The notes beneath the pieces are model-generated. The model made no database searches and was not told the origin of the DNA. It worked only from the letters and a program-made list of their open reading frames with translations. A stretch of 64,000 nucleotides of DNA, from the NCBI RefSeq assembly GCF_024362525.1, contig NZ_CP101458.1:1488001-1552000 (forward strand), read 5' to 3'. The position numbers and the translations under genes were made by a program. This document shows, one piece after another, positions 2,937 through 44,417 of this stretch (positions are counted from its first letter, which is position 1; each line of letters begins with the position of its first letter). Origin of the DNA: Natrononativus amylolyticus (GTDB lineage: Archaea; Halobacteriota; Halobacteria; Halobacteriales; Natrialbaceae).

Positions 2937-3018
2937 ACTGCGCTCGCGATCGCTCGCTCGTTTTCAGTTCTGGTATTCGGGACCAAACCTCCAAGGTGGT
3001 CCTCCGTTTCCTCCGGCT

Positions 3019-5154
3019 ATGAACTACGGTCTCGATATCACGTCCGACGGAGTTCGGCTGGCACGAACCGTCGCCGACGGCGCCGACCTCGAGGTTAGCC
3101 GCGCGCCGGCGGTCGCCTGTCCGCTCGAGTCGATCGCCGAGGTGCCGCCGGTCGCACTCGGCGAGCGCTGCTCGATCGAACGCGACGGCACCACGTACGT
3201 CCTCGGCGAGGACGCCGAACGCGTCGCCGACGCAACCGGGGCGGCGCTCGAGCCCCTGTTCGTCGACGGCGTGCCGGCCGGCGAGCACGTCGAACCGGCG
3301 CTGTCGGCGCTCGTCGGCGGGCTCCTGGCCGACGCCGGGGCCCTCGAGGGCGCGATCGGCGGACGGCTCTGTTACACGACTCCCGGACGGATCGTCGACG
3401 GGACCGAATCCACAATCCGCGGCGACCGCCGCGAGGGTGGGGCACTCCCCGGGGACTTCGCGTCGGCCGCGGGCCTCGAGCCGGCGCCGATCACCGCCGG
3501 GTTCGCCGTCGTCTACGACCAGCTCGCAGCGGACAAACACACCGGCCTCGGCATCTGCATCGGCGAGCAGCTCACGAGCGTCTCGCTGTCGTACTACGGC
3601 GTGCCGGCGCTGGCGTTCTCGCTGCCGAAGGGCCGCGAGTGGCTGATCGCCGCCGCGGCCGACGACACCGGTTCCGACCCGGTCGCGGTCGCGGCCGCCC
3701 TCGAGGCGTTCACGCTCGACCCGGACGCCGCAACCGGCGAGATCGAGAGCGCCCTCGCGGGCGCGTTCGACGCGCTCGCCGTCGAACTGGCGACCGCGAT
3801 CGCCGACCGGGCCGACGAGAGCGACCTCCAGTCGGGGCTCGCGGTTCCCGTCGCGGTCGCCGGCAGCGGAGCCGTCGAGGGCGTCGAGTACCTGCTCGGC
3901 GGGCGGTTCGACGGGAGCCCCCTTCCGATCTCAATTCGCGGCGTCAGACTCGCAGAGGAGCCGGCCGAGTGCGCCGCTCGAGGCGCCCTCGCGGCCGCGA
4001 CTGACGGAATCGACGGCCTCGAAGCCGTCACCTGGTCGGCCCCCGAGGCGGCACCGACGGCCGGGGAAACGCTGACGTTCTCCGAACCGAGCGCCGACGA
4101 CCCTACCGCGTCCGACGGCTCCGCGATAGCGGACGACGCCATCGACCAGCTGTTCGACCGGCTGGCGAACAGGGACGCGGAGATCGAAGCCGTCGCCGCC
4201 GAGGTCGAGACCCTCTCCGAGGCGCTCGAGTCGGTCGATAAACGCGCCGCGACGGCGGTCGACGCCCTCGGTGACGATCTGGAGGGGGTTTCGGCGGCCG
4301 TCGCGGATCTCGAAACTTCCCTCGAGGCCACTCGAGACGACCTCACGGCGACCGGCGATGCGCTCGCGGAACTCCGCGATACACACGAGCGGCTGGCCGA
4401 AGAGAGCGCGACCGCGGCCGAGTGTGCCCGCCTCGACGCGGCGCTCGCCGACCTCGAAGACCGGCTCGACGCCGCCGTCACCCGCGTCGACCGCGTTTCG
4501 GATCGTCTCGAGGAGCACTCGACGGAGGCGGAAACGCGGGTCGCGGAGCTGGCCGGTCACGTCGAATCGCTGTCGGCGGACGTCGAATCGTTGTCGGCGG
4601 AGACGGACGACGGAATCGCGCACCTGACCGCGACCTTCTCGGAGACGGAGTCCGCACTCGAGGGCCGCGTCGACTCGGCAGTCGCCGACCTCGAGAGCTC
4701 GCTCTCGACCCTCGAAACGGCGATCGGAGACGTCGACGACCGCCTCGACACGACCCGGTCGGAACTCGAACGCGAGATCGACGACCGGCTCGAGACGGAA
4801 CCGGTCGACCCGGAGCGGGTGGATCGACTCGAGTCGCGGGTCGCGGACCTCACAGAGATCGGACCGCGGTGTGGGACGCTCGAGGAACGACTCGAGGCGC
4901 TCGAGGTGGGAGCCGACCGGGACGCCAGCCGCGCGCGCGACGACCTCGTCGACCTGCGCGCTGACCTCGAGGCGGTACGAGCCGAGTCGAAGGTGTCGAC
5001 GGGCGTCGCTGTCCCGATGCTCGCTGGCGGTGGGGCCGCCGGAATCGTCGCCGGTGGCGTTACCGCGGCGTCGGTCGGCGACCCGGTCGGCCTCGCCGGG
5101 GTACTGCTGGGTGCGGTGCTCGTTGGCGTCGCCGGCTGGCTGACCCGCTCGTAG
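3019..5154 (+). CDS. Actin/Hsp70-fold-like domain + long coiled coil + C-terminal membrane hairpin
   Basis: 711 aa. Residues 1 to about 310 look like a divergent actin/Hsp70 (ASKHA) fold: an opening GLDITSDGVRLAR in the phosphate-1 position, GLGICIGEQLTSVSL as a phosphate-2-like hairpin, and VAVAGSGAVEGV near the adenosine site. The glycine-rich loops are weaker than in true ATPases. Residues about 369-658 are an unbroken heptad-like acidic coiled coil. Residues about 663-711 are two hydrophobic segments ending WLTRS, so the protein is probably anchored in the membrane with its bulk in the cytoplasm. It is flanked by an epimerase and a cupin and seems to be transcribed alone. The fold assignment is from motifs only. 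Confidence 0.6.
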   Translation: MNYGLDITSDGVRLARTVADGADLEVSRAPAVACPLESIAEVPPVALGERCSIERDGTTYVLGEDAERVADATGAALEPLFVDGVPAGEHVEPALSALVGGLLADAGALEGAIGGRLCYTTPGRIVDGTESTIRGDRREGGALPGDFASAAGLEPAPITAGFAVVYDQLAADKHTGLGICIGEQLTSVSLSYYGVPALAFSLPKGREWLIAAAADDTGSDPVAVAAALEAFTLDPDAATGEIESALAGAFDALAVELATAIADRADESDLQSGLAVPVAVAGSGAVEGVEYLLGGRFDGSPLPISIRGVRLAEEPAECAARGALAAATDGIDGLEAVTWSAPEAAPTAGETLTFSEPSADDPTASDGSAIADDAIDQLFDRLANRDAEIEAVAAEVETLSEALESVDKRAATAVDALGDDLEGVSAAVADLETSLEATRDDLTATGDALAELRDTHERLAEESATAAECARLDAALADLEDRLDAAVTRVDRVSDRLEEHSTEAETRVAELAGHVESLSADVESLSAETDDGIAHLTATFSETESALEGRVDSAVADLESSLSTLETAIGDVDDRLDTTRSELEREIDDRLETEPVDPERVDRLESRVADLTEIGPRCGTLEERLEALEVGADRDASRARDDLVDLRADLEAVRAESKVSTGVAVPMLAGGGAAGIVAGGVTAASVGDPVGLAGVLLGAVLVGVAGWLTRS

Positions 5155-5166
5155 CTCGTTCGTCCG

Positions 5167-5532
5167 CTACCCCTCAAGGATACCGTCGTCTTTCACGTTC
5201 GGCGAGCCGACGACGAGCACGGTGCTATCCTCGACGGCCCGGAGCTGTCGCCAGGACTCCGGTGGGACGACCAGACAGTCGTGCTGGCGGAGCTCGACGA
5301 CGTCGCGGTCGTCCTCGCGTTCGATCGTCACGTCGACGGTTCCCTCGAGGACGACGTACAGCTCCTCCTGTTCCCGCTGGCGGTGGTAGGCGTTCTCCTC
5401 GCCCTTCTCGTACTCCCAGATGCTGGGGCGCATCTCGTCGGGCCTGAGCTCGACCCCGACCGGGAGCAGCGTGGGCGCTTCGTCCTCGAGTTCGTGCGGC
5501 TCGATCTCGCTGCGTGTGGCTAGCGAGTACAT
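5167..5532 (-). CDS. Small cupin-domain protein
   Basis: 121 aa from ATG 5532. It is a single cupin barrel: EENAYHRQREQEELYVVLEGTVDV is the first cupin motif, with one His and a Glu retained and the second His replaced by Gln, and LRQHDCLVVPPESW leads into the second motif. Such small cupins bind metal or small ligands and may be isomerases, dioxygenases or sensors; the function here is unknown. It ends 12 nt from the convergent coiled-coil gene. Confidence 0.75.
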   Translation of the reverse strand: MYSLATRSEIEPHELEDEAPTLLPVGVELRPDEMRPSIWEYEKGEENAYHRQREQEELYVVLEGTVDVTIEREDDRDVVELRQHDCLVVPPESWRQLRAVEDSTVLVVGSPNVKDDGILEG

Positions 5533-7604: not shown

Positions 7605-8327
7605 CTACTCCCCGGTGCGGTCGACCTGGAGCGTTTCCTTGCCGATGAACCGCGGGCGCTCGTCGATCGCGAGGAAGTTGTCGACGTCCTCGCGGGCCTC
7701 CTTCGCTTTGCCTTTCGCCGGATCGTAGTCCCGCGAGCCCTCGCTCCCGAGGGCGTCGTACAGCGCCTCCAGCTCCTCGAAGTAGAGTTCGGCGACGCCG
7801 TCGAACTCGCTGTTCTCGGGGTCCGTGGGGAGGACGGTCGCGTAGCGCACCACGCCCTCGATCTCGCGCGCGATCGGGGTGTGCTCGTTCTGCCAGTGGT
7901 CGACGAACTCCTCGTGGCTCATCCCCTCCTGGCGGACGAGGAACGCGGAGTGCTTGTACAGCCCCGTCGTGTCGCCGTCCGTCTCATCTTTCTGGATAAT
8001 CTCCTCACCGATCAGCCGGGGTCGTTCCTCGACGGCAAGGAAGTTGTCGACGTCCTCGCGGGCCTTCGCGGCCACCTCCTTCGTCGGATCGTAGTCCCGG
8101 GAGCCGGGACTGCCCAGGGCGTCGTGGAGGTCCTCGAGGCTCTCGAAGTAGAGTTCGGCGAGACCGTCGAACTCGGCGTGTTCCGGTTCCGTGGGAATCA
8201 CCGTCTGGTAGCGCACCACGCCCTCGATGTCGCGGGCGATCGGGGTGTGCTCTCCCTGCCAGTAGTCGACGAACTCCTCGTGGCTCATTCCGTCCTGGCG
8301 GACGAGACAGGCGACGTGCTTGTACAT
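7605..8327 (-). CDS. Tandemly duplicated EthD-like (dimeric alpha-beta barrel) protein
   Basis: 240 aa from ATG 8327. Two copies of one domain lie in tandem: residues 1 to about 115 and 122-240. Both contain YKH-x-LVRQ-GMSHEEFVD-W, EHTPIAR-IEGVVRY, FDG-AELYFE and AREDVDNFLA-ERPR-IG. EthD-family proteins usually dimerise to form one barrel, so the fusion probably folds as a pseudo-dimer. EthD is linked to ether degradation, but most members have unknown roles. It is divergent from the M24 gene. Confidence 0.8.
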   Translation of the reverse strand: MYKHVACLVRQDGMSHEEFVDYWQGEHTPIARDIEGVVRYQTVIPTEPEHAEFDGLAELYFESLEDLHDALGSPGSRDYDPTKEVAAKAREDVDNFLAVEERPRLIGEEIIQKDETDGDTTGLYKHSAFLVRQEGMSHEEFVDHWQNEHTPIAREIEGVVRYATVLPTDPENSEFDGVAELYFEELEALYDALGSEGSRDYDPAKGKAKEAREDVDNFLAIDERPRFIGKETLQVDRTGE

Positions 8328-8463
8328 ACGTGCTGAGCAATGCCGTGTCCCACTAAAAAAGGTGAGGAACCGCCGTCGGCTGGCGGTTCCCGCGCGGGTC
8401 CCGCGGCCGTCTGCCCGTCTCGTGTCGGTGGTTTTCATAAGGAACGTTCGTGAAGGGGGAGGT

Positions 8464-9732
8464 ATGTACGAGCGAAGCTTCATGGAGGGAACCCGCGGCA
8501 CGCAGGCCGTCGACTGGGAGGAGCGCATCGACGTCAAGCGCCTGCGCGAGGAGCGAAAAGAGCGCGCCTTAGAGCGCCTACAGGAGACAGATCTGGGCTC
8601 GATGCTGCTCGTCTCGGACCCGAACATCCGGTACGTCACCGGGCTGGCGATGACCGGCGGGAGCGGGGCGGACCACTACACCTTGCTCACGGAAGAGGGC
8701 GATATCGTTCACTGGGACACCGCCGACCACGCGAGCAATCAGCGTTTCAATTGCCCGTGGCTGCAGGACATTCGCTACGCCTGTCCCGGCCTCGGCAACG
8801 TCCCCCGCGCGTCCGGGCGCGATTCCGCCCGCCAGTTCTTGAAGGGGAAGATGGCCGAGACGGTCGTGACCGCACTCGAGGAGTACGGCGTGAGCGACGA
8901 GAAGATGGGCCTCGACGTCGGCAACGCCGGCCTGATCGGCGCGTTCGAAGAGCGCGGCGTCGAAGTCGACACGGCGACCGTCCACGCGGTGATGGAGGAC
9001 GCCCGGAAGGTCAAGACGCGCGACGAGATCGAGTGCCTGCGGCAGGTGGCCGCGATCTGCGAAGCGGGCTTCCAGCGGATCAAGAACGCCGCCGAACCGG
9101 GGATGCGCGAGTCGGAGGTCTGGGGACAGGCGGTGGACGAACTCTGGCGCCAGGGGGCGTTCGTCGGCGGCGGCTACCTCACCTCCGGACCCAACACGTG
9201 GCCGAAACACCAGGCGAACACCACCGACCGGACGATCCGCCCGAAGGATCTCGTCTACGCCGACATGTACAACATCGGCTACCTGGGCTACCGGTCGTGT
9301 TACTACCGCACGTTCTCGATGGGCGAGCCCACCGAGGCCCAGCAGGACGCTTACGAGATCGCCCGGGACAACCTCTACGACGTCCTCGAGGAGATACAAC
9401 CGGGCGCGACGACCGACGAGATCGCCGAGGCCTTCCCCGACATGGAGGGCGAGCACGCCGAGTTCTACGACGCCGACGAGCACTGGCAGATGACGACGAA
9501 CCACTGGGCGCACGGGCTCGGCCTCCAGCTGTACGAGGTGCCGCTGATCTGGCGTGGCCTCTCACCCGATCACCCGATCGAGATCGAGGAGGGGATGACG
9601 ATGGCAGTCGAGACCCAGGAGCCCGCCGAGCGCCAGGGCGTCCGCGTCGAGGAGATGGTCGTCGTCCGCGAGAACGGGGTCGAGATCCTGAGCCAGTGGC
9701 CGGTCGAGGAGATCACGCGGATCGACTACTGA
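8464..9732 (+). CDS. M24-family peptidase-like protein with a Cys in place of a metal ligand
   Basis: 422 aa from ATG 8464, preceded by a GGGGGAGG ribosome-binding site. It has a creatinase N-terminal-like domain (about 30-170) and a pita-bread M24 domain (about 180-420). Metal ligands in order: D267 in YADMYN, then the motif that is normally SD-x-TRTF reads SCYYRTF (C279), then H350 in AHGLG, E383 in AVETQE and E396 in VRVEEM. Xaa-Pro peptidases use five ligands, so one Asp is replaced by Cys. It could be a non-peptidase M24 enzyme such as a lyase; DddP-type DMSP lyases also belong to this fold. Confidence 0.8.
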   Translation: MYERSFMEGTRGTQAVDWEERIDVKRLREERKERALERLQETDLGSMLLVSDPNIRYVTGLAMTGGSGADHYTLLTEEGDIVHWDTADHASNQRFNCPWLQDIRYACPGLGNVPRASGRDSARQFLKGKMAETVVTALEEYGVSDEKMGLDVGNAGLIGAFEERGVEVDTATVHAVMEDARKVKTRDEIECLRQVAAICEAGFQRIKNAAEPGMRESEVWGQAVDELWRQGAFVGGGYLTSGPNTWPKHQANTTDRTIRPKDLVYADMYNIGYLGYRSCYYRTFSMGEPTEAQQDAYEIARDNLYDVLEEIQPGATTDEIAEAFPDMEGEHAEFYDADEHWQMTTNHWAHGLGLQLYEVPLIWRGLSPDHPIEIEEGMTMAVETQEPAERQGVRVEEMVVVRENGVEILSQWPVEEITRIDY

Positions 9733-19443: not shown

Positions 19444-20715
19444 GTGACTCCTGACTGGCGTCCCAAAGAGTCTATTAAATGGTTGGAAACGCAGGTTGCC
19501 TTCAACGAGCGGCAAATATCCTTCCGATTCACCTGGGAGCAACCTGATCCCGGTGGCTGGCTCCATGATATGCTCGTCTACCAGGACGGAGAGTGGCAAC
19601 AGTTCGGCGATCCGTCGCCGTGGGTTGCCAACGGTGAGTACGGGGATCACACTGGATTCTACGAAGATCGAGTAAGCTTTCTACTGGACGACGGCTCCGT
19701 CAAAGGTGCCGAGCAATTCGGTGGATGGCTGACTGTACACACCGGTCAGCGGTCGATGCCTAGTCAGGTTCCCAGATCGGACGTCCGCGAACACGATCAC
19801 TTTGGGCCGGACGGGCTAGACAAGACGGATATCCGGAAGTACATCCCACAGGCATGTGAGGGTGAGTGGTGGGAAAACGACTGGCGAGCGGTCAGACCAC
19901 AGCACGAACTCGACCAGTTGAAAGCCGACGGCGTGTTTCTCGACCTGCCAATGTGGCGTGCTCACCGCAGTAACCCGAAAGGATACGGGACGGATCACCA
20001 CGTCCTTGATTATCGACACAGTGACCAGGGCCAAAATACGTACACGGCCCAAAACTGGAACCCGGAGGACGGCCCCGAGTATATGTGGAACCCGGACGTC
20101 GTCGATGCTGGTGCGCTCGACTATCACGATATTCGTGACGGCACTCTCCCAGACCAGCAGGACGGAACATATGCACTGGAACTGGAAGATGCAGCGGAAT
20201 TCGATCCAGCTGTCGCCGAGTGGGAAGGCGCGATGATCCCACGACGACCGTTGCGAGAACCCTCCGGAAGCGCCGCAGATTGGAAGGCCACCGGGACGTG
20301 GGAAGATGGCCAGTGGATCGTCGAAATGTGGCGCGATCTGGAAACTGACCATCCTGCCGATACCAAACAGCTCCACCCAGGCGAGGTGTACACGTGGTCG
20401 CCGGCAGTTCATCACGGGGCTGGTCAACGATGGCACTGGGTCGCCTATCCCTACAGGTTAGGACTCGGCGTGAAACCCGATTACGTGGGCGACCAGTACA
20501 CCGATGGAACGACCGAACTCGTCGCTGAGGGATTTACGGGCGAAAACCCGAACTGGGACACGGTCGAGTCGCATACGATCCCACTCATCTTTCCAGGGAC
20601 CCTCACGTGGGACGATCTCGTCAGTTCAGCGCACTCGCGTAGTCCAGAGATCCGTGACGCAGGGATTACGATGTGGGAACTGTACGAGAAAGATCCCGCC
20701 TCGTTTCTCCCCTAA
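19444..20715 (+). CDS. Ethylbenzene-dehydrogenase-related haem-binding domain protein
   Basis: 423 aa from GTG 19444. RFTWEQPDPGGWLHDMLVYQDGEWQ near the N-terminus and GQWIVEMWRDLETDHPAD near the C-terminus match the EB_dh domain of the gamma subunits of ethylbenzene, DMS and chlorate dehydrogenases, which bind haem b. No signal peptide is visible. The frame remains coding-like upstream (IRPIDWRDV before the GTG) back to a stop at 19378, with no ATG/GTG/TTG, so the start may be wrong or the 5' end lost. The MFS gene follows 81 nt downstream. No catalytic molybdenum subunit is adjacent. Confidence 0.7.
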   Translation: MTPDWRPKESIKWLETQVAFNERQISFRFTWEQPDPGGWLHDMLVYQDGEWQQFGDPSPWVANGEYGDHTGFYEDRVSFLLDDGSVKGAEQFGGWLTVHTGQRSMPSQVPRSDVREHDHFGPDGLDKTDIRKYIPQACEGEWWENDWRAVRPQHELDQLKADGVFLDLPMWRAHRSNPKGYGTDHHVLDYRHSDQGQNTYTAQNWNPEDGPEYMWNPDVVDAGALDYHDIRDGTLPDQQDGTYALELEDAAEFDPAVAEWEGAMIPRRPLREPSGSAADWKATGTWEDGQWIVEMWRDLETDHPADTKQLHPGEVYTWSPAVHHGAGQRWHWVAYPYRLGLGVKPDYVGDQYTDGTTELVAEGFTGENPNWDTVESHTIPLIFPGTLTWDDLVSSAHSRSPEIRDAGITMWELYEKDPASFLP

Positions 20716-20796
20716 AGACTGTCAGGTGGGGCCAGCGTTCCGGCCCAAATCACCGACTTCGCCGACATTTATGCTCATGACTGGCTGAATTAGACT

Positions 20797-22113
20797 ATGG
20801 CAGGTCAACAAGTCGAAGTTGCCGGACCGATGGATGCGTTCCGGCAGTTCTTCTCCCTTCAGCGAGACGTTCTGGTACTCTCGTTGGCGATGTTTGCTTT
20901 CAGCTTGGGGTTCCAGATGACCAATCGATTCCTTCCGGAGTATCTCGTCTTCCTCGGCGCAACTGGGTTCATCGTGGGTCTGTTCGCCACGCTCGGGAAC
21001 GTAATCGGGGCAGTCTTTCCGTACTACGGTGGGGTTGTCTCTGATCGCGTCGGTTCACGATATGCCTTGACTGTTTTCGGATTTCTTTCGACGTTCGGAT
21101 TTGCGATCTGGTTCGCTGCTGCCTACATCCCGGCAATCGATCTTGGTGCGTTCGTCCTCGAGCCGTGGGTTTGGGTGTTCGTCGGGCTGTTATTGGCCCA
21201 GTGCTGGAAATCGTTCGGAATCGGCGGTCACTACGCGATTGTTAAGCAGACCACCGAACCGAGCCGACTGGTTCGCGGATTCGCCAGTACGGAAACGTTC
21301 CGACGAACAGCGTTTCTGATTGCGCCACTGATCGTCGCTATCCTCGTGGCCGACCAACTGATGCCCGGTTTTCTGTGGGTGCTCGTGATCGCCATTGTCT
21401 TCGCTGTCCTCGGCACAATCGTACAGCACCTGCTGTACGAAGCCGATAAGGACACCGTCGGGAAGGAGTTCCAGGGCTTCGGCCAGATCCTCACCGATCT
21501 ACGGGCGCTTCCAGACCCATTACGTCCATTGCTGGTGGCAGATACGTTCGTGCGGTTCGCCAATGGGATGGTATACGCGTTTTTCATCCTCGTGATCACG
21601 CAACTGATGGGGATCGGACTGACGGTGACGGTTCCCGTGTTTGGCACGATCAACCTGTCGCCCGCCGCGTTCTTCGGCGTTCTCCTGAGCGTCGAGATGT
21701 TTATCGCACTCCTCACGATGGCTCCCGCCGCCAAAATCGCCGAGCATGTCGGACTCAAGCCAGTCGTTGGACTCGGCTTTTTGGTCTACGCCGTCTTTCC
21801 GATCATGCTCATCTTCGCGCCGGAAAACTCGTTGGTCTTGATCGCACTGTTCGCGTTCTCGGGGCTGCGCTTCGCTGGGTTACCGGCTCACAAGGCACTG
21901 ATCGTTGGACCGGCTGAACGAGGTGCAGGCGGTCGAGTGACTGGCTCATACTACTTCGTCCGTGGTGCGATCGTGATCCCCAGCGGGGTACTAGGTGGGT
22001 TCCTGTGGGAGTTCGTGAACCCGGAAATCTCGTTCACGATTGCATCGGTCATCGGGATGATTGGTGTCGCCTACTTCGTGATCTTCGGCGAGGAGTTCGA
22101 GGCCTACCAATAG
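20797..22113 (+). CDS. MFS transporter
   Basis: 438 aa with about 12 membrane helices. The loop 2-3 motif reads GGVVSDRVGSRYAL. The N-terminal 25 residues are hydrophilic. Codon use matches the upstream haem-domain gene and differs from the flanks, so the two probably arrived together. The substrate is unknown. It converges with the macro-domain gene. Confidence 0.85.
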   Translation: MAGQQVEVAGPMDAFRQFFSLQRDVLVLSLAMFAFSLGFQMTNRFLPEYLVFLGATGFIVGLFATLGNVIGAVFPYYGGVVSDRVGSRYALTVFGFLSTFGFAIWFAAAYIPAIDLGAFVLEPWVWVFVGLLLAQCWKSFGIGGHYAIVKQTTEPSRLVRGFASTETFRRTAFLIAPLIVAILVADQLMPGFLWVLVIAIVFAVLGTIVQHLLYEADKDTVGKEFQGFGQILTDLRALPDPLRPLLVADTFVRFANGMVYAFFILVITQLMGIGLTVTVPVFGTINLSPAAFFGVLLSVEMFIALLTMAPAAKIAEHVGLKPVVGLGFLVYAVFPIMLIFAPENSLVLIALFAFSGLRFAGLPAHKALIVGPAERGAGGRVTGSYYFVRGAIVIPSGVLGGFLWEFVNPEISFTIASVIGMIGVAYFVIFGEEFEAYQ

Positions 22114-41503: not shown

Positions 41504-42952
41504 TTAGCTCCCGTTCGATCCCTCGGAGCCGTCGACGCCCATCGCGTCGAACAGCGTGCGTTTGACCGCCTCCTCGGTCAGTCCGAGCAGCGTTTCGCGC
41601 GTATCCTCCGAGATTTCGATGCCGGTGAAGATTCCGAGCGGAATCTCCGCGCTCGCCTGCGTCGAGTGACCCGCGGTCTCGCCGATCTCGCCGTAGGCGT
41701 CGTCGAGGACCTTCCCGATGTTCATCCGGATGTCCTTCGAGCGCGCCGCGAGAAAGATCGTCTCCTCGGCGATGCCGAAGACGGCCGTCGTCGTCACGCC
41801 CTCGAGGTTGAGCAGGTGACTCGCCGCCTGCGAGAGCGCCTCGCGGTCCCGGACGAAGCCGGCGTTCGAGACGAGGTGACTCCCCTGGACGTCGCGGTTG
41901 GCGATCGCCTCGGCGAGCACGTCGAGGGTCTCGGGGGACATCGAGGGCGACTCGACCTGTTCTAAGGTGTCGTGGTTCGCGAAGGGGTAGAGGTAGGCCG
42001 CGGCGGTCAGGTCCGCCGGCGTCGTATCGCGCTTGAAGTCGAGGGTCTCTGCGCGAATCCCGTAGAGCAGGGCGGTCGCGACGGCCTCGGAGACGCTCAT
42101 GTCGAACTCCTGGGTGTACTTCGTCATGATCGTCGACGTCGAGGACATGTTCGGCCGGATGTCGACGAACGCGGGATCGTAGTCATCGTCCGGCTCGTGG
42201 TGATCGATGATGATGTCGATGTCGAGGCCGATCTCGCTCGCCGCGGCGTGGTCGACGTGAGCGACCGTGTCGTACACCGACCGGTCCTCGATGTCGTCCC
42301 ACTGCAGGAGTTCGATGCCCAGCAGATTGACGAACGCGCGGTTCTCCTGGTGGCCGATATCGCCCAGGTAGACGATGTCGGACTCCACACCCAGGTGCGC
42401 TGCGATCGCCTGGAGGGCGGCCGCGCTCGCGATCGAATCGGGGTCCGGGCTGTTCTGGGTGACGATCGCCAATCGATCGCCGGTCTCCTCGAGAATAGCC
42501 GCGAGCTTCGCCGCGTTGTACTCGAGTTCGCCGGACTCGAGTGCCCGCAGTGCGGAGTCGGCGATCACCGTGGAGGGGTTGATGACGATGTCAGCGCCCA
42601 GTTCGGAGAGTTCGTCGCCGGAGACTGGATCGCTCGCGCGCGCGACGACGAACTGCTCGTTGCCGAGCGCTCGGATGTGTTCGACCGCCTGCTTGTTCGA
42701 TTCGACGTCGGAGGCGAGAATGAGAACGACGCTCCGGTCCGCGACGATCTCGGCGGTCTCCGCCTCGCGGATATCCGCCGTTCGCGCGTCGAGGTCCTGG
42801 TCGCGAAGCGATTCGACGCGGCTCTCGTCGCGGTCGATTATCAGCACGTCCTTGCCCTGACCGACCAGTTCCTCGGCCACAGCGTAGCCGACGCTCCCGC
42901 AGCCGAGAATGGCGTAGTCGGACGTCGACGAGATAGTAACCCCCGTACTCAT
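41504..42952 (-). CDS. DHH-family phosphoesterase with N-terminal TrkA-N domain
   Basis: 482 aa from ATG 42952; a GTG six bases upstream is possible. TrkA-N Rossmann domain first: YAILGCGSVGYAVAEEL and LIIDRDESRVESL. The DHH domain follows from about residue 160: VTQNSPDPDSIASAAALQAI, IIIDHHEPDDD, and a DHHA1-like C-terminus. Such fusions act on cyclic di-AMP or related nucleotides and may be sensors. Standalone gene facing tRNA-Lys. Confidence 0.88.
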   Translation of the reverse strand: MSTGVTISSTSDYAILGCGSVGYAVAEELVGQGKDVLIIDRDESRVESLRDQDLDARTADIREAETAEIVADRSVVLILASDVESNKQAVEHIRALGNEQFVVARASDPVSGDELSELGADIVINPSTVIADSALRALESGELEYNAAKLAAILEETGDRLAIVTQNSPDPDSIASAAALQAIAAHLGVESDIVYLGDIGHQENRAFVNLLGIELLQWDDIEDRSVYDTVAHVDHAAASEIGLDIDIIIDHHEPDDDYDPAFVDIRPNMSSTSTIMTKYTQEFDMSVSEAVATALLYGIRAETLDFKRDTTPADLTAAAYLYPFANHDTLEQVESPSMSPETLDVLAEAIANRDVQGSHLVSNAGFVRDREALSQAASHLLNLEGVTTTAVFGIAEETIFLAARSKDIRMNIGKVLDDAYGEIGETAGHSTQASAEIPLGIFTGIEISEDTRETLLGLTEEAVKRTLFDAMGVDGSEGSNGS

Positions 42953-43106
42953 GTACACTCAGGTCGGACTCACCGTACTTAACGCTCCCGAAGACAGTGA
43001 CGTTTTGGGACCAGAGCCCGGGATCGCGGTTCCCGAATGCACACCACTCTCACGCCGACTACCAAGCAAAACCTATTTCACTGCACACCCGAAACTCGAG
43101 GATACA

Positions 43107-43180
43107 GGGCCGGTAGCTCAGTTAGGCAGAGCGTCTGACTCTTAATCAGACGGTCGCGTGTTCAAATCGCGCCCGGCCCG
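43107..43180 (+). tRNA. tRNA-Lys (anticodon CUU)
   Basis: 74 nt. Acceptor GGGCCGG (43107-43113) pairs with CCGGCCC (43173-43179), with discriminator G 43180. D-arm GCTC/GAGC; anticodon stem TCTGA/TCAGA around loop CTCTTAA (anticodon CTT); T-arm GCGTG/CGCGC around TTCAAAT. CCA is not encoded. No intron is visible. Confidence 0.93.
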
Positions 43181-43231
43181 TTCTGCACCGCGAACAAATC
43201 GTGAGCGGTGCATCACGGAACCGGCGGGATT

Positions 43232-43281
43232 TGAACTAGACTGAAGTTCTGCGCGAAGCGCAGGTTCTCAGGCGTAGTTCA
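43232..43281. repeat. Nested inverted repeat (cruciform-like)
   Basis: Outer arms TGAACTA (43232-43238) and TAGTTCA (43275-43281), a middle CTGA/TCAG pair, and an inner perfect hairpin CTGCGC-GAA-GCGCAG (43249-43263). It lies directly before the tRNA-end copy. It could be an RNA structure or a recombination site. Confidence 0.6.
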
Positions 43282-43282
43282 C

Positions 43283-43297
43283 AATCGCGCCCGGCCC
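43283..43297 (+). repeat. Copy of the tRNA-Lys 3' end
   Basis: AATCGCGCCCGGCCC is identical to tRNA positions 43165-43179, 118 nt downstream. Just upstream, GTTCA matches the T-loop with one extra C. Such partial duplicates of tRNA ends usually mark an attachment site of an integrated or lost element. Confidence 0.7.
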
Positions 43298-43502
43298 CCT
43301 TTCTTCGACAACAAAGCGACCGCAGCACCCGACGTAAACCGCTCTGTGATCCGTCGACACTTCGCTCGAGCGGTTCCTCTCTACACTTCGGCTACCACCG
43401 CTCCCCCTCGCTCGACCCAATAGTACCAGTTACTGTAATATGGAAGGTGTATTCTAACCGCCGTTCTGGCGTGAGTTTCTCTCACACGTTCTCGACTACC
43501 GG

Positions 43503-43584
43503 ACTGTTTCACCGGTCGTGAGGGTCTTGAACGTAACTCGGTGTCGACTCATTGTGTTCACATACTGTTTCACGCGACTGTTTC
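43503..43584. repeat. Three ACTGTTTC copies
   Basis: ACTGTTTC at 43503-43510, 43564-43571 and 43577-43584. The last two are the starts of a 13-nt tandem repeat (ACTGTTTCACGCG then ACTGTTTCGCGCG). They lie 250-330 nt upstream of the DUF7344-like gene. Role unknown. Confidence 0.6.
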
Positions 43585-43663
43585 GCGCGGCCGAAATAGC
43601 CTCGAAAAAACGCAAGGCGTGATCGGTTTTGAAGGGTCGTAAACAGAATAAACAGTGACTAAC

Positions 43664-43691
43664 AGGATGGGATCATAGATTATCTCATCCT
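43664..43691. promoter_or_regulatory. Inverted repeat upstream of the DUF7344-like gene
   Basis: AGGATGGGAT (43664-43673) and ATCTCATCCT (43682-43691) pair over 10 bp with one G:T and an 8-nt loop. It may be an operator or RNA hairpin. It lies 142 nt upstream of ATG 43833. Confidence 0.45.
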
Positions 43692-43832
43692 AACTGCATC
43701 TTACTACCAGAATCGTGTACTCAGGGGCTGAATATCCGTATACCGGGCGAGAAACGGTCTGAAATAGGGTCACACCGGTCGGGAGGCGTTCAATGCTTTA
43801 TTACCGACTCGCCACAAGGAGTAGTCGAGACA

Positions 43833-44417
43833 ATGAGCACGACACAGACCACTTCCGACGGCGCGGTCGCGAACGACGTTGGGAACGATCATCGTGATGA
43901 GACGCAGCCGGCCGACCTCGAGAAGGACGACATCTTCCACATCCTGCAGACGCGGCGTCGCCGGGACGCGCTGCGGTACCTGCAGGGAACCGACGAGCCG
44001 GTACGCATGCGCGATCTCGCAGAGCAGGTAGCGGCCTGGGAGAACGAGACGACCGTCGAGCAGCTGAGTTCGGACGAGCGCCAGCGCGTGTACATCTCGC
44101 TGTACCAGTCGCACCTGCCGAAACTCGACGAGGAGGGGATCATCAACTACAACCAGAGTCGCGGGATCGTCGAGCGCACGCCCGCGGCCGACCAGTTCGA
44201 TCCGTACCTCGAGCCGACCGACGAGGAGGCAGCCGACGCGGACGGCGAGGGCGTGGAGACGAACGTGAGCAGCTACTACTTCGGCGCCGCGTTCGTGAGC
44301 ACGCTCCTGTTGCTCGCCTCCGCGACCGGCCTCTCCGCGCTCGCCGGCATCACGCTCGGCGCGGTTATTCTCGCGCTGTTCGTCAGCGTCACCGTGGCAC
44401 AGCGCTATCTGAACTGA
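43833..44417 (+). CDS. DUF7344-like winged-helix membrane protein
   Basis: 194 aa from ATG 43833. Residues about 30-115 look like a winged helix: DIFHILQTRRRRDALRYL, RMRDLAEQVAAWE and YISLYQSHLPKLDEEG. Two hydrophobic helices close the protein (SSYYFGAAFVSTLLLLAS and ITLGAVILALFVSVTVA). A membrane-bound regulator of unknown target is likely. Haloarchaea have many DUF7344 paralogues. Confidence 0.8.
   Translation: MSTTQTTSDGAVANDVGNDHRDETQPADLEKDDIFHILQTRRRRDALRYLQGTDEPVRMRDLAEQVAAWENETTVEQLSSDERQRVYISLYQSHLPKLDEEGIINYNQSRGIVERTPAADQFDPYLEPTDEEAADADGEGVETNVSSYYFGAAFVSTLLLLASATGLSALAGITLGAVILALFVSVTVAQRYLN

Follow-up and report, generated by a model that had tools for sequence, protein, structure and literature searches.

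The stretch of DNA analysed here (the window, 64,000 nucleotides) carries at 3019..5154, on the + strand, an open reading frame for a 711-residue protein whose layout raises the question of what an actin-like module might do on a long stalk at the membrane. The preliminary description had recognised in this protein an ASKHA-like N-terminus, a long acidic coiled coil and, at the C-terminus, two hydrophobic segments, an arrangement unlike that of MreB, FtsA, crenactin or salactin. These observations stand; what had been missed is that the N-terminal domain belongs to the volactin family, and that the same genome encodes a short volactin. The ATG at 3019 is supported as the start of this long-form volactin gene because the N-termini of its relatives align at the same methionine and a conserved element lies upstream.

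Residues 1-327 (3019..3999, +) match the Pfam family Volactin (PF25216; HVO_2015 in Haloferax volcanii) along its full length, at 2.8e-92 and with 310 bits against a curated cut-off of 35. On this profile match the domain is assigned to volactin, a named haloarchaeal actin family, and with that membership its fold is already known. Moreover, a profile built from 19 short and long volactin domains reaches MreB (PDB 4czl, 6.2e-4) and FtsA (7q6f, 1.5e-3), and volactin-domain members match MamK (1.1e-11), FtsA (4e-5) and also BeeR models; MreB and MamK are the best remote matches outside volactin, and the MreB, FtsA and MamK matches all lie below the curated family cut-offs. A profile built from long forms only found no actin in the PDB. 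When canonical volactin is aligned globally with E. coli MreB, the nucleotide-binding motifs coincide. Since profiles of the volactin domain reach MreB, FtsA and MamK, the assignment of the N-terminal domain to the actin superfamily is considered sound, with profiles, not a structure, as its basis, and the fold call, which had rested on motifs only, is thereby superseded. AlphaFold2 runs with a three-sequence input gave models too poor for a fold search (mean pLDDT 42.8 and 47.0 in two runs), which is attributed to the small number of input sequences. Matches to SMC/Rad50 and to viral spike or haemagglutinin proteins were dismissed as coiled-coil noise. Salactin, also a haloarchaeal actin homologue (PF25229), gave zero matches anywhere in the genome, the long-form gene included.

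The ordinary volactin of this genome (G000:C1:1429756-1430718, 340 residues, 7.9e-138) is encoded about 60 kb from the long-form gene, and the two are not co-transcribed. Canonical volactins in the genomes surveyed are about 340 residues long and end after the domain, whereas the long form adds a linker, a coiled coil and a hydrophobic C-terminus. The linker, defined by alignment, is of low complexity and spans residues 328-366 (4000..4116, +). It is followed by the coiled coil, at about residues 367-659 (4117..4995, +), where the heptad a/d score is 1.08 against 0.58 +/- 0.06 in shuffled sequences (z = 8.8); the same shuffle test gave z = 14 to 17.6 in three relatives. The coiled coil is acidic, with a net charge of -50 across 271 measured residues, and begins with a conserved sequence, AIDQLFDRLANR (residues 374-385; 4138..4173, +), that the majority of host-family long forms contain. 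In the AlphaFold2 model, which is of low confidence (pLDDT mostly 50-78 in this region) and hence of little weight, residues 367-659 form a near-continuous helix with short breaks.

At the C-terminus, residues 663-681 (5005..5061, +; Gly-rich, LAGGGAAGIVAGG) and residues 683-710 (5065..5148, +; hydropathy 2.24) are the only places where the protein's mean hydropathy over 19 residues exceeds 1.55. Both are conserved in relatives, and the Gly-rich pattern AGGGGAGVVAGG...VG...LG is found in most of 26 aligned long forms. The tail is of low confidence in the AlphaFold2 model, which places a helix at residues 690-708. Judged from hydropathy, both segments are long enough to cross a membrane, and the C-terminus is predicted to be inserted; because segment 1 is Gly-rich, a single membrane pass is a possible alternative. 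The protein opens directly with an actin-like strand and an N-terminal hydrophobic stretch is absent, so the head would be expected in the cytoplasm. Overall, this anatomy of domain, coiled coil and hydrophobic C-terminus is regarded as well supported.

The gene lies downstream of genes for a MOSC-domain protein (392-1228, +) and an NAD-dependent epimerase (about 1980-2936, +), and is followed on the opposite strand by a cupin gene (5167-5532), an MFS transporter gene and an HD-domain gene. The same neighbours recur around other long forms, which indicates that the locus is old. Two host-family genomes without a long form display an empty site at this position: in one (G026) the MOSC and cupin genes are 25 bases apart, and in the other (G034) the MOSC gene adjoins another conserved neighbour. 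Further along the window, a minus-strand ORF at 7608-8639 has two halves that resemble each other and contain the stretch MSHEEFVDYWQ or MSHEEFVDHWQ; it recurs downstream of several long forms. Separately, the G+C content falls to 0.58 at 20001-22000 and 0.60 at 42001-44000, against about 0.67, and these regions are possibly acquired DNA.

Alignment of upstream regions revealed an element of two blocks, TTTTCAGTTCTGGTATT at 2961..2977 (+), 42-58 bases before the ATG, and CCAAACCTCCAAGG at 2983..2996 (+). In the form TTTTCA..TCTGGTAyT followed by CCAAAC..CCAAg it is common to most host-family long forms, within 60 bases of the ATG; L059 and L060 carry a variant, and it is absent from divergent members, namely those of families f7 and f10 and four of the host family (L047, L049, L051 and L052). 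The exact 17-base first block has one site in its own genome and 12 across 37 genomes; 11 of the 12 lie immediately before a long form, and the element is thus nearly specific to this gene. A regulon behind it is unsupported, there being about one exact site per genome and near matches without clear excess.

Among 195 genomes drawn evenly from the order, a long-form profile detected the long form in 18 of the 30 that belong to the host family (f1) and in five that belong to f7 and f10. A 24th genome, G038 of family f3, has a very divergent copy (L057:7660-10023), in which a coiled coil and a C-terminal pair of hydrophobic segments are present. Long forms are therefore sporadic in three families besides that of the host; a wider profile found no further ones across 45 chosen genomes. 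Among named species, Natrinema mahii and N. thermotolerans have relatives of the long form, the only two recovered by a contig scan with a single protein; they suggest Natrialbaceae as the host family. Canonical volactin is present in every genome with a long form (23/23, and G038), and the majority of families with canonical volactin have no long form. Beyond the long forms, one genome of family f4 (G185) has short volactins with identical scores on two contigs (C3:353944 and C5:9952), and one more copy that is divided between two frames (C4:12424-13349).

The two kinds of paralogue, 18 short and 35 long forms in the comparison made here, differ markedly in the active site. The catalytic glutamate, which is E140 in Caulobacter MreB (PMC4051119) and Glu152 in canonical volactin, corresponds by alignment to E. 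coli MreB to Ala160 of the window protein (3496..3498, +). This position is a glutamate in every one of the 18 short forms. In the 35 aligned long forms it is never one, but Lys, Thr, Arg, Ser, Pro, Gln or Ala; the divergent G038 protein also has Ala, making 0/36. From the alignment and site table, the phosphate-1 loop (residues 4-11; 3028..3051, +) reads GLDITSDG in place of the canonical GLDVGTMN, and its threonine is found in 18/18 short but only 13/35 long forms. The phosphate-2 loop (residues 178-188; 3550..3582, +) is GICIGEQLTSV, compared with GISFGAGMTNV. In the adenosine motif AVAGSGAVEGV (residues 279-289; 3853..3885, +) the second glycine is replaced and one residue is deleted relative to VVTGGTSSPSGF; this second glycine of TGG is kept in all 18 short forms and lost in 34/35 long ones, with the long forms of the host family also one residue short here. 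The window copy thus keeps none of three features of canonical volactins that lie outside the Pfam definition of PF25216, the catalytic Glu (A160), DVGT (DITS) and TGG (AGS). Canonical volactin itself departs from MreB elsewhere in the active site (D to S, T to M, E to N in phosphate-2), and loss of the glutamate is therefore, on its own, no proof of an inactive enzyme. Taken as a whole, the degradation of the site relative to canonical volactin makes a working ATPase unlikely, although the protein may bind nucleotide; from sequence comparison, reduced ATPase activity in the long form is judged likely.

What, then, might such a protein do? A cytoskeletal or membrane-scaffold role, close to what the preliminary description had proposed, is still the best guess. 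In the passages of PMC10869688 that concern volactin, the H. volcanii protein is described as making dynamic filaments that are membrane-bound at their tips, and volactin-binding factors are postulated. Given this description, a protein that joins a head of the same family, a degraded site, a stalk and a hydrophobic tail would be well suited to serve as anchor, cap or nucleator. We tentatively favour, at somewhat less than even probability, the reading that the long form is a membrane-tethered, probably non-hydrolysing volactin paralogue with a role in anchoring, capping or nucleating volactin filaments. The actin-like head would be cytoplasmic and carried by a rod some 290 residues long (roughly 40 nm if one straight helix), which is probably oligomeric, and the Gly-rich hydrophobic C-terminal hairpin would hold the protein at the membrane. 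The domain may then copolymerise with, cap or nucleate the filaments formed by the ordinary volactin of the same cell, so tying their tips or sides to the membrane; in the absence of hydrolysis, these contacts would be long-lived. Against such an interaction with volactin stands the distance of about 60 kb between the two genes, which are not co-transcribed. Since most families with canonical volactin have no long form, the protein would not be a general anchor.

The proposed role draws by analogy on Spiroplasma MreB3, a paralogue within the actin superfamily whose E...T-X-[D/E] motif is degraded and whose ATPase activity is low; it has been put forward as a stable membrane anchor for other MreB filaments (PMC9597168). 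The two proteins are not close homologues, and the membrane part of MreB3 is an N-terminal amphipathic helix, whereas in the long form hydrophobic segments at the C-terminus follow a long coiled coil. A more specific version, which we regard as distinctly doubtful, is that the long form is a catalytically dead, membrane-bound archaeal actin acting as tip anchor or nucleator of a dynamic actin-like filament, with the length of the variable stalk setting its distance from the membrane, and so a counterpart of FtsA or RodZ built from different parts. In FtsA, likewise an actin homologue, it is a C-terminal element that attaches a cytoskeletal filament to the membrane. FtsA differs from the long form in having only sub-cut-off matches to volactin domains and no coiled coil of this kind.

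The pace of evolution bears on whether the long form touches volactin filaments at all. A tree built from 53 domains separates the long from the short forms by one branch with support of 99/99, and the near-invariant short forms have far shorter branches than the long forms, which hence evolve much faster; the tree is unrooted, and the direction from short to long is an assumption. With such rapid divergence, contacts with filaments may be lost. Full-length long proteins have between 505 and 1263 residues, and almost all of this difference is accounted for by the stalk, which in relatives can be shorter than 100 or longer than 800 residues. A quickly diverging domain, loss of the catalytic glutamate and adenosine glycine, a rod of widely varying length and a gene missing from many relatives would all suit an envelope or signalling scaffold unconnected with volactin filaments, in which the degenerate domain, at the head of a membrane-anchored coiled-coil rod, now serves to bind proteins. 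We consider this scaffold somewhat unlikely, as Asp6 and a full-length match to the volactin domain have been retained and canonical volactin co-occurs in all sampled long-form genomes, although it is itself nearly universal in these families.

Another reading is an independent second actin, one that still binds ATP, forms its own membrane-attached filaments and turns over slowly, as Spiroplasma MreB3 may. In its favour, the phosphate-1 aspartate (Asp6 in the window copy) persists in 33/35 long forms, the phosphate-2 and adenosine glycines are partly kept, MreB3 polymerises despite its degraded hydrolysis motif (PMC9597168), and the coiled coil would serve to bundle subunits or keep them apart. 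In the window copy, however, the Gly-Thr of the phosphate-1 loop and the second adenosine glycine are both gone, and an independent actin of this sort is thought improbable.

A further explanation is prompted by the distribution of salactin, whose filaments grow from the cell poles (PMC10746226). Salactin scores above cut-off in 56/195 genomes, all outside f1, f7 and f10, the families in which most long forms occur. A strict mutual exclusion was dropped, as G038, alone among the 24 long-form genomes, has both; and with so few long-form clades, which may stem from one evolutionary event, the pattern is weak and is taken as a lead, not a result. That the long form replaces salactin in the host family, as a pole- or membrane-anchored actin helping to distribute DNA, is accordingly very improbable, since G038 has salactin beside its long form and members of f1 that lack the long form lack salactin too. 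Among the control genomes, that of H. volcanii gives a match to Pfam Salactin above the curated cut-off, whereas in the passage of PMC7617734 on this organism volactin is called its sole identified actin homologue.

A description of a long-form volactin was not found in the volactin passages of the part of the open-access volactin literature covered. On that coverage, what is new is the long paralogue, the fold and the volactin family being already known. The long form is conserved in many haloarchaea of one family and sporadic in others. It is a concrete candidate for one of the factors that regulate volactin filaments (PMC10869688), and it would show, in nature, an actin that has become a likely pseudoenzyme and been set on a stalk.
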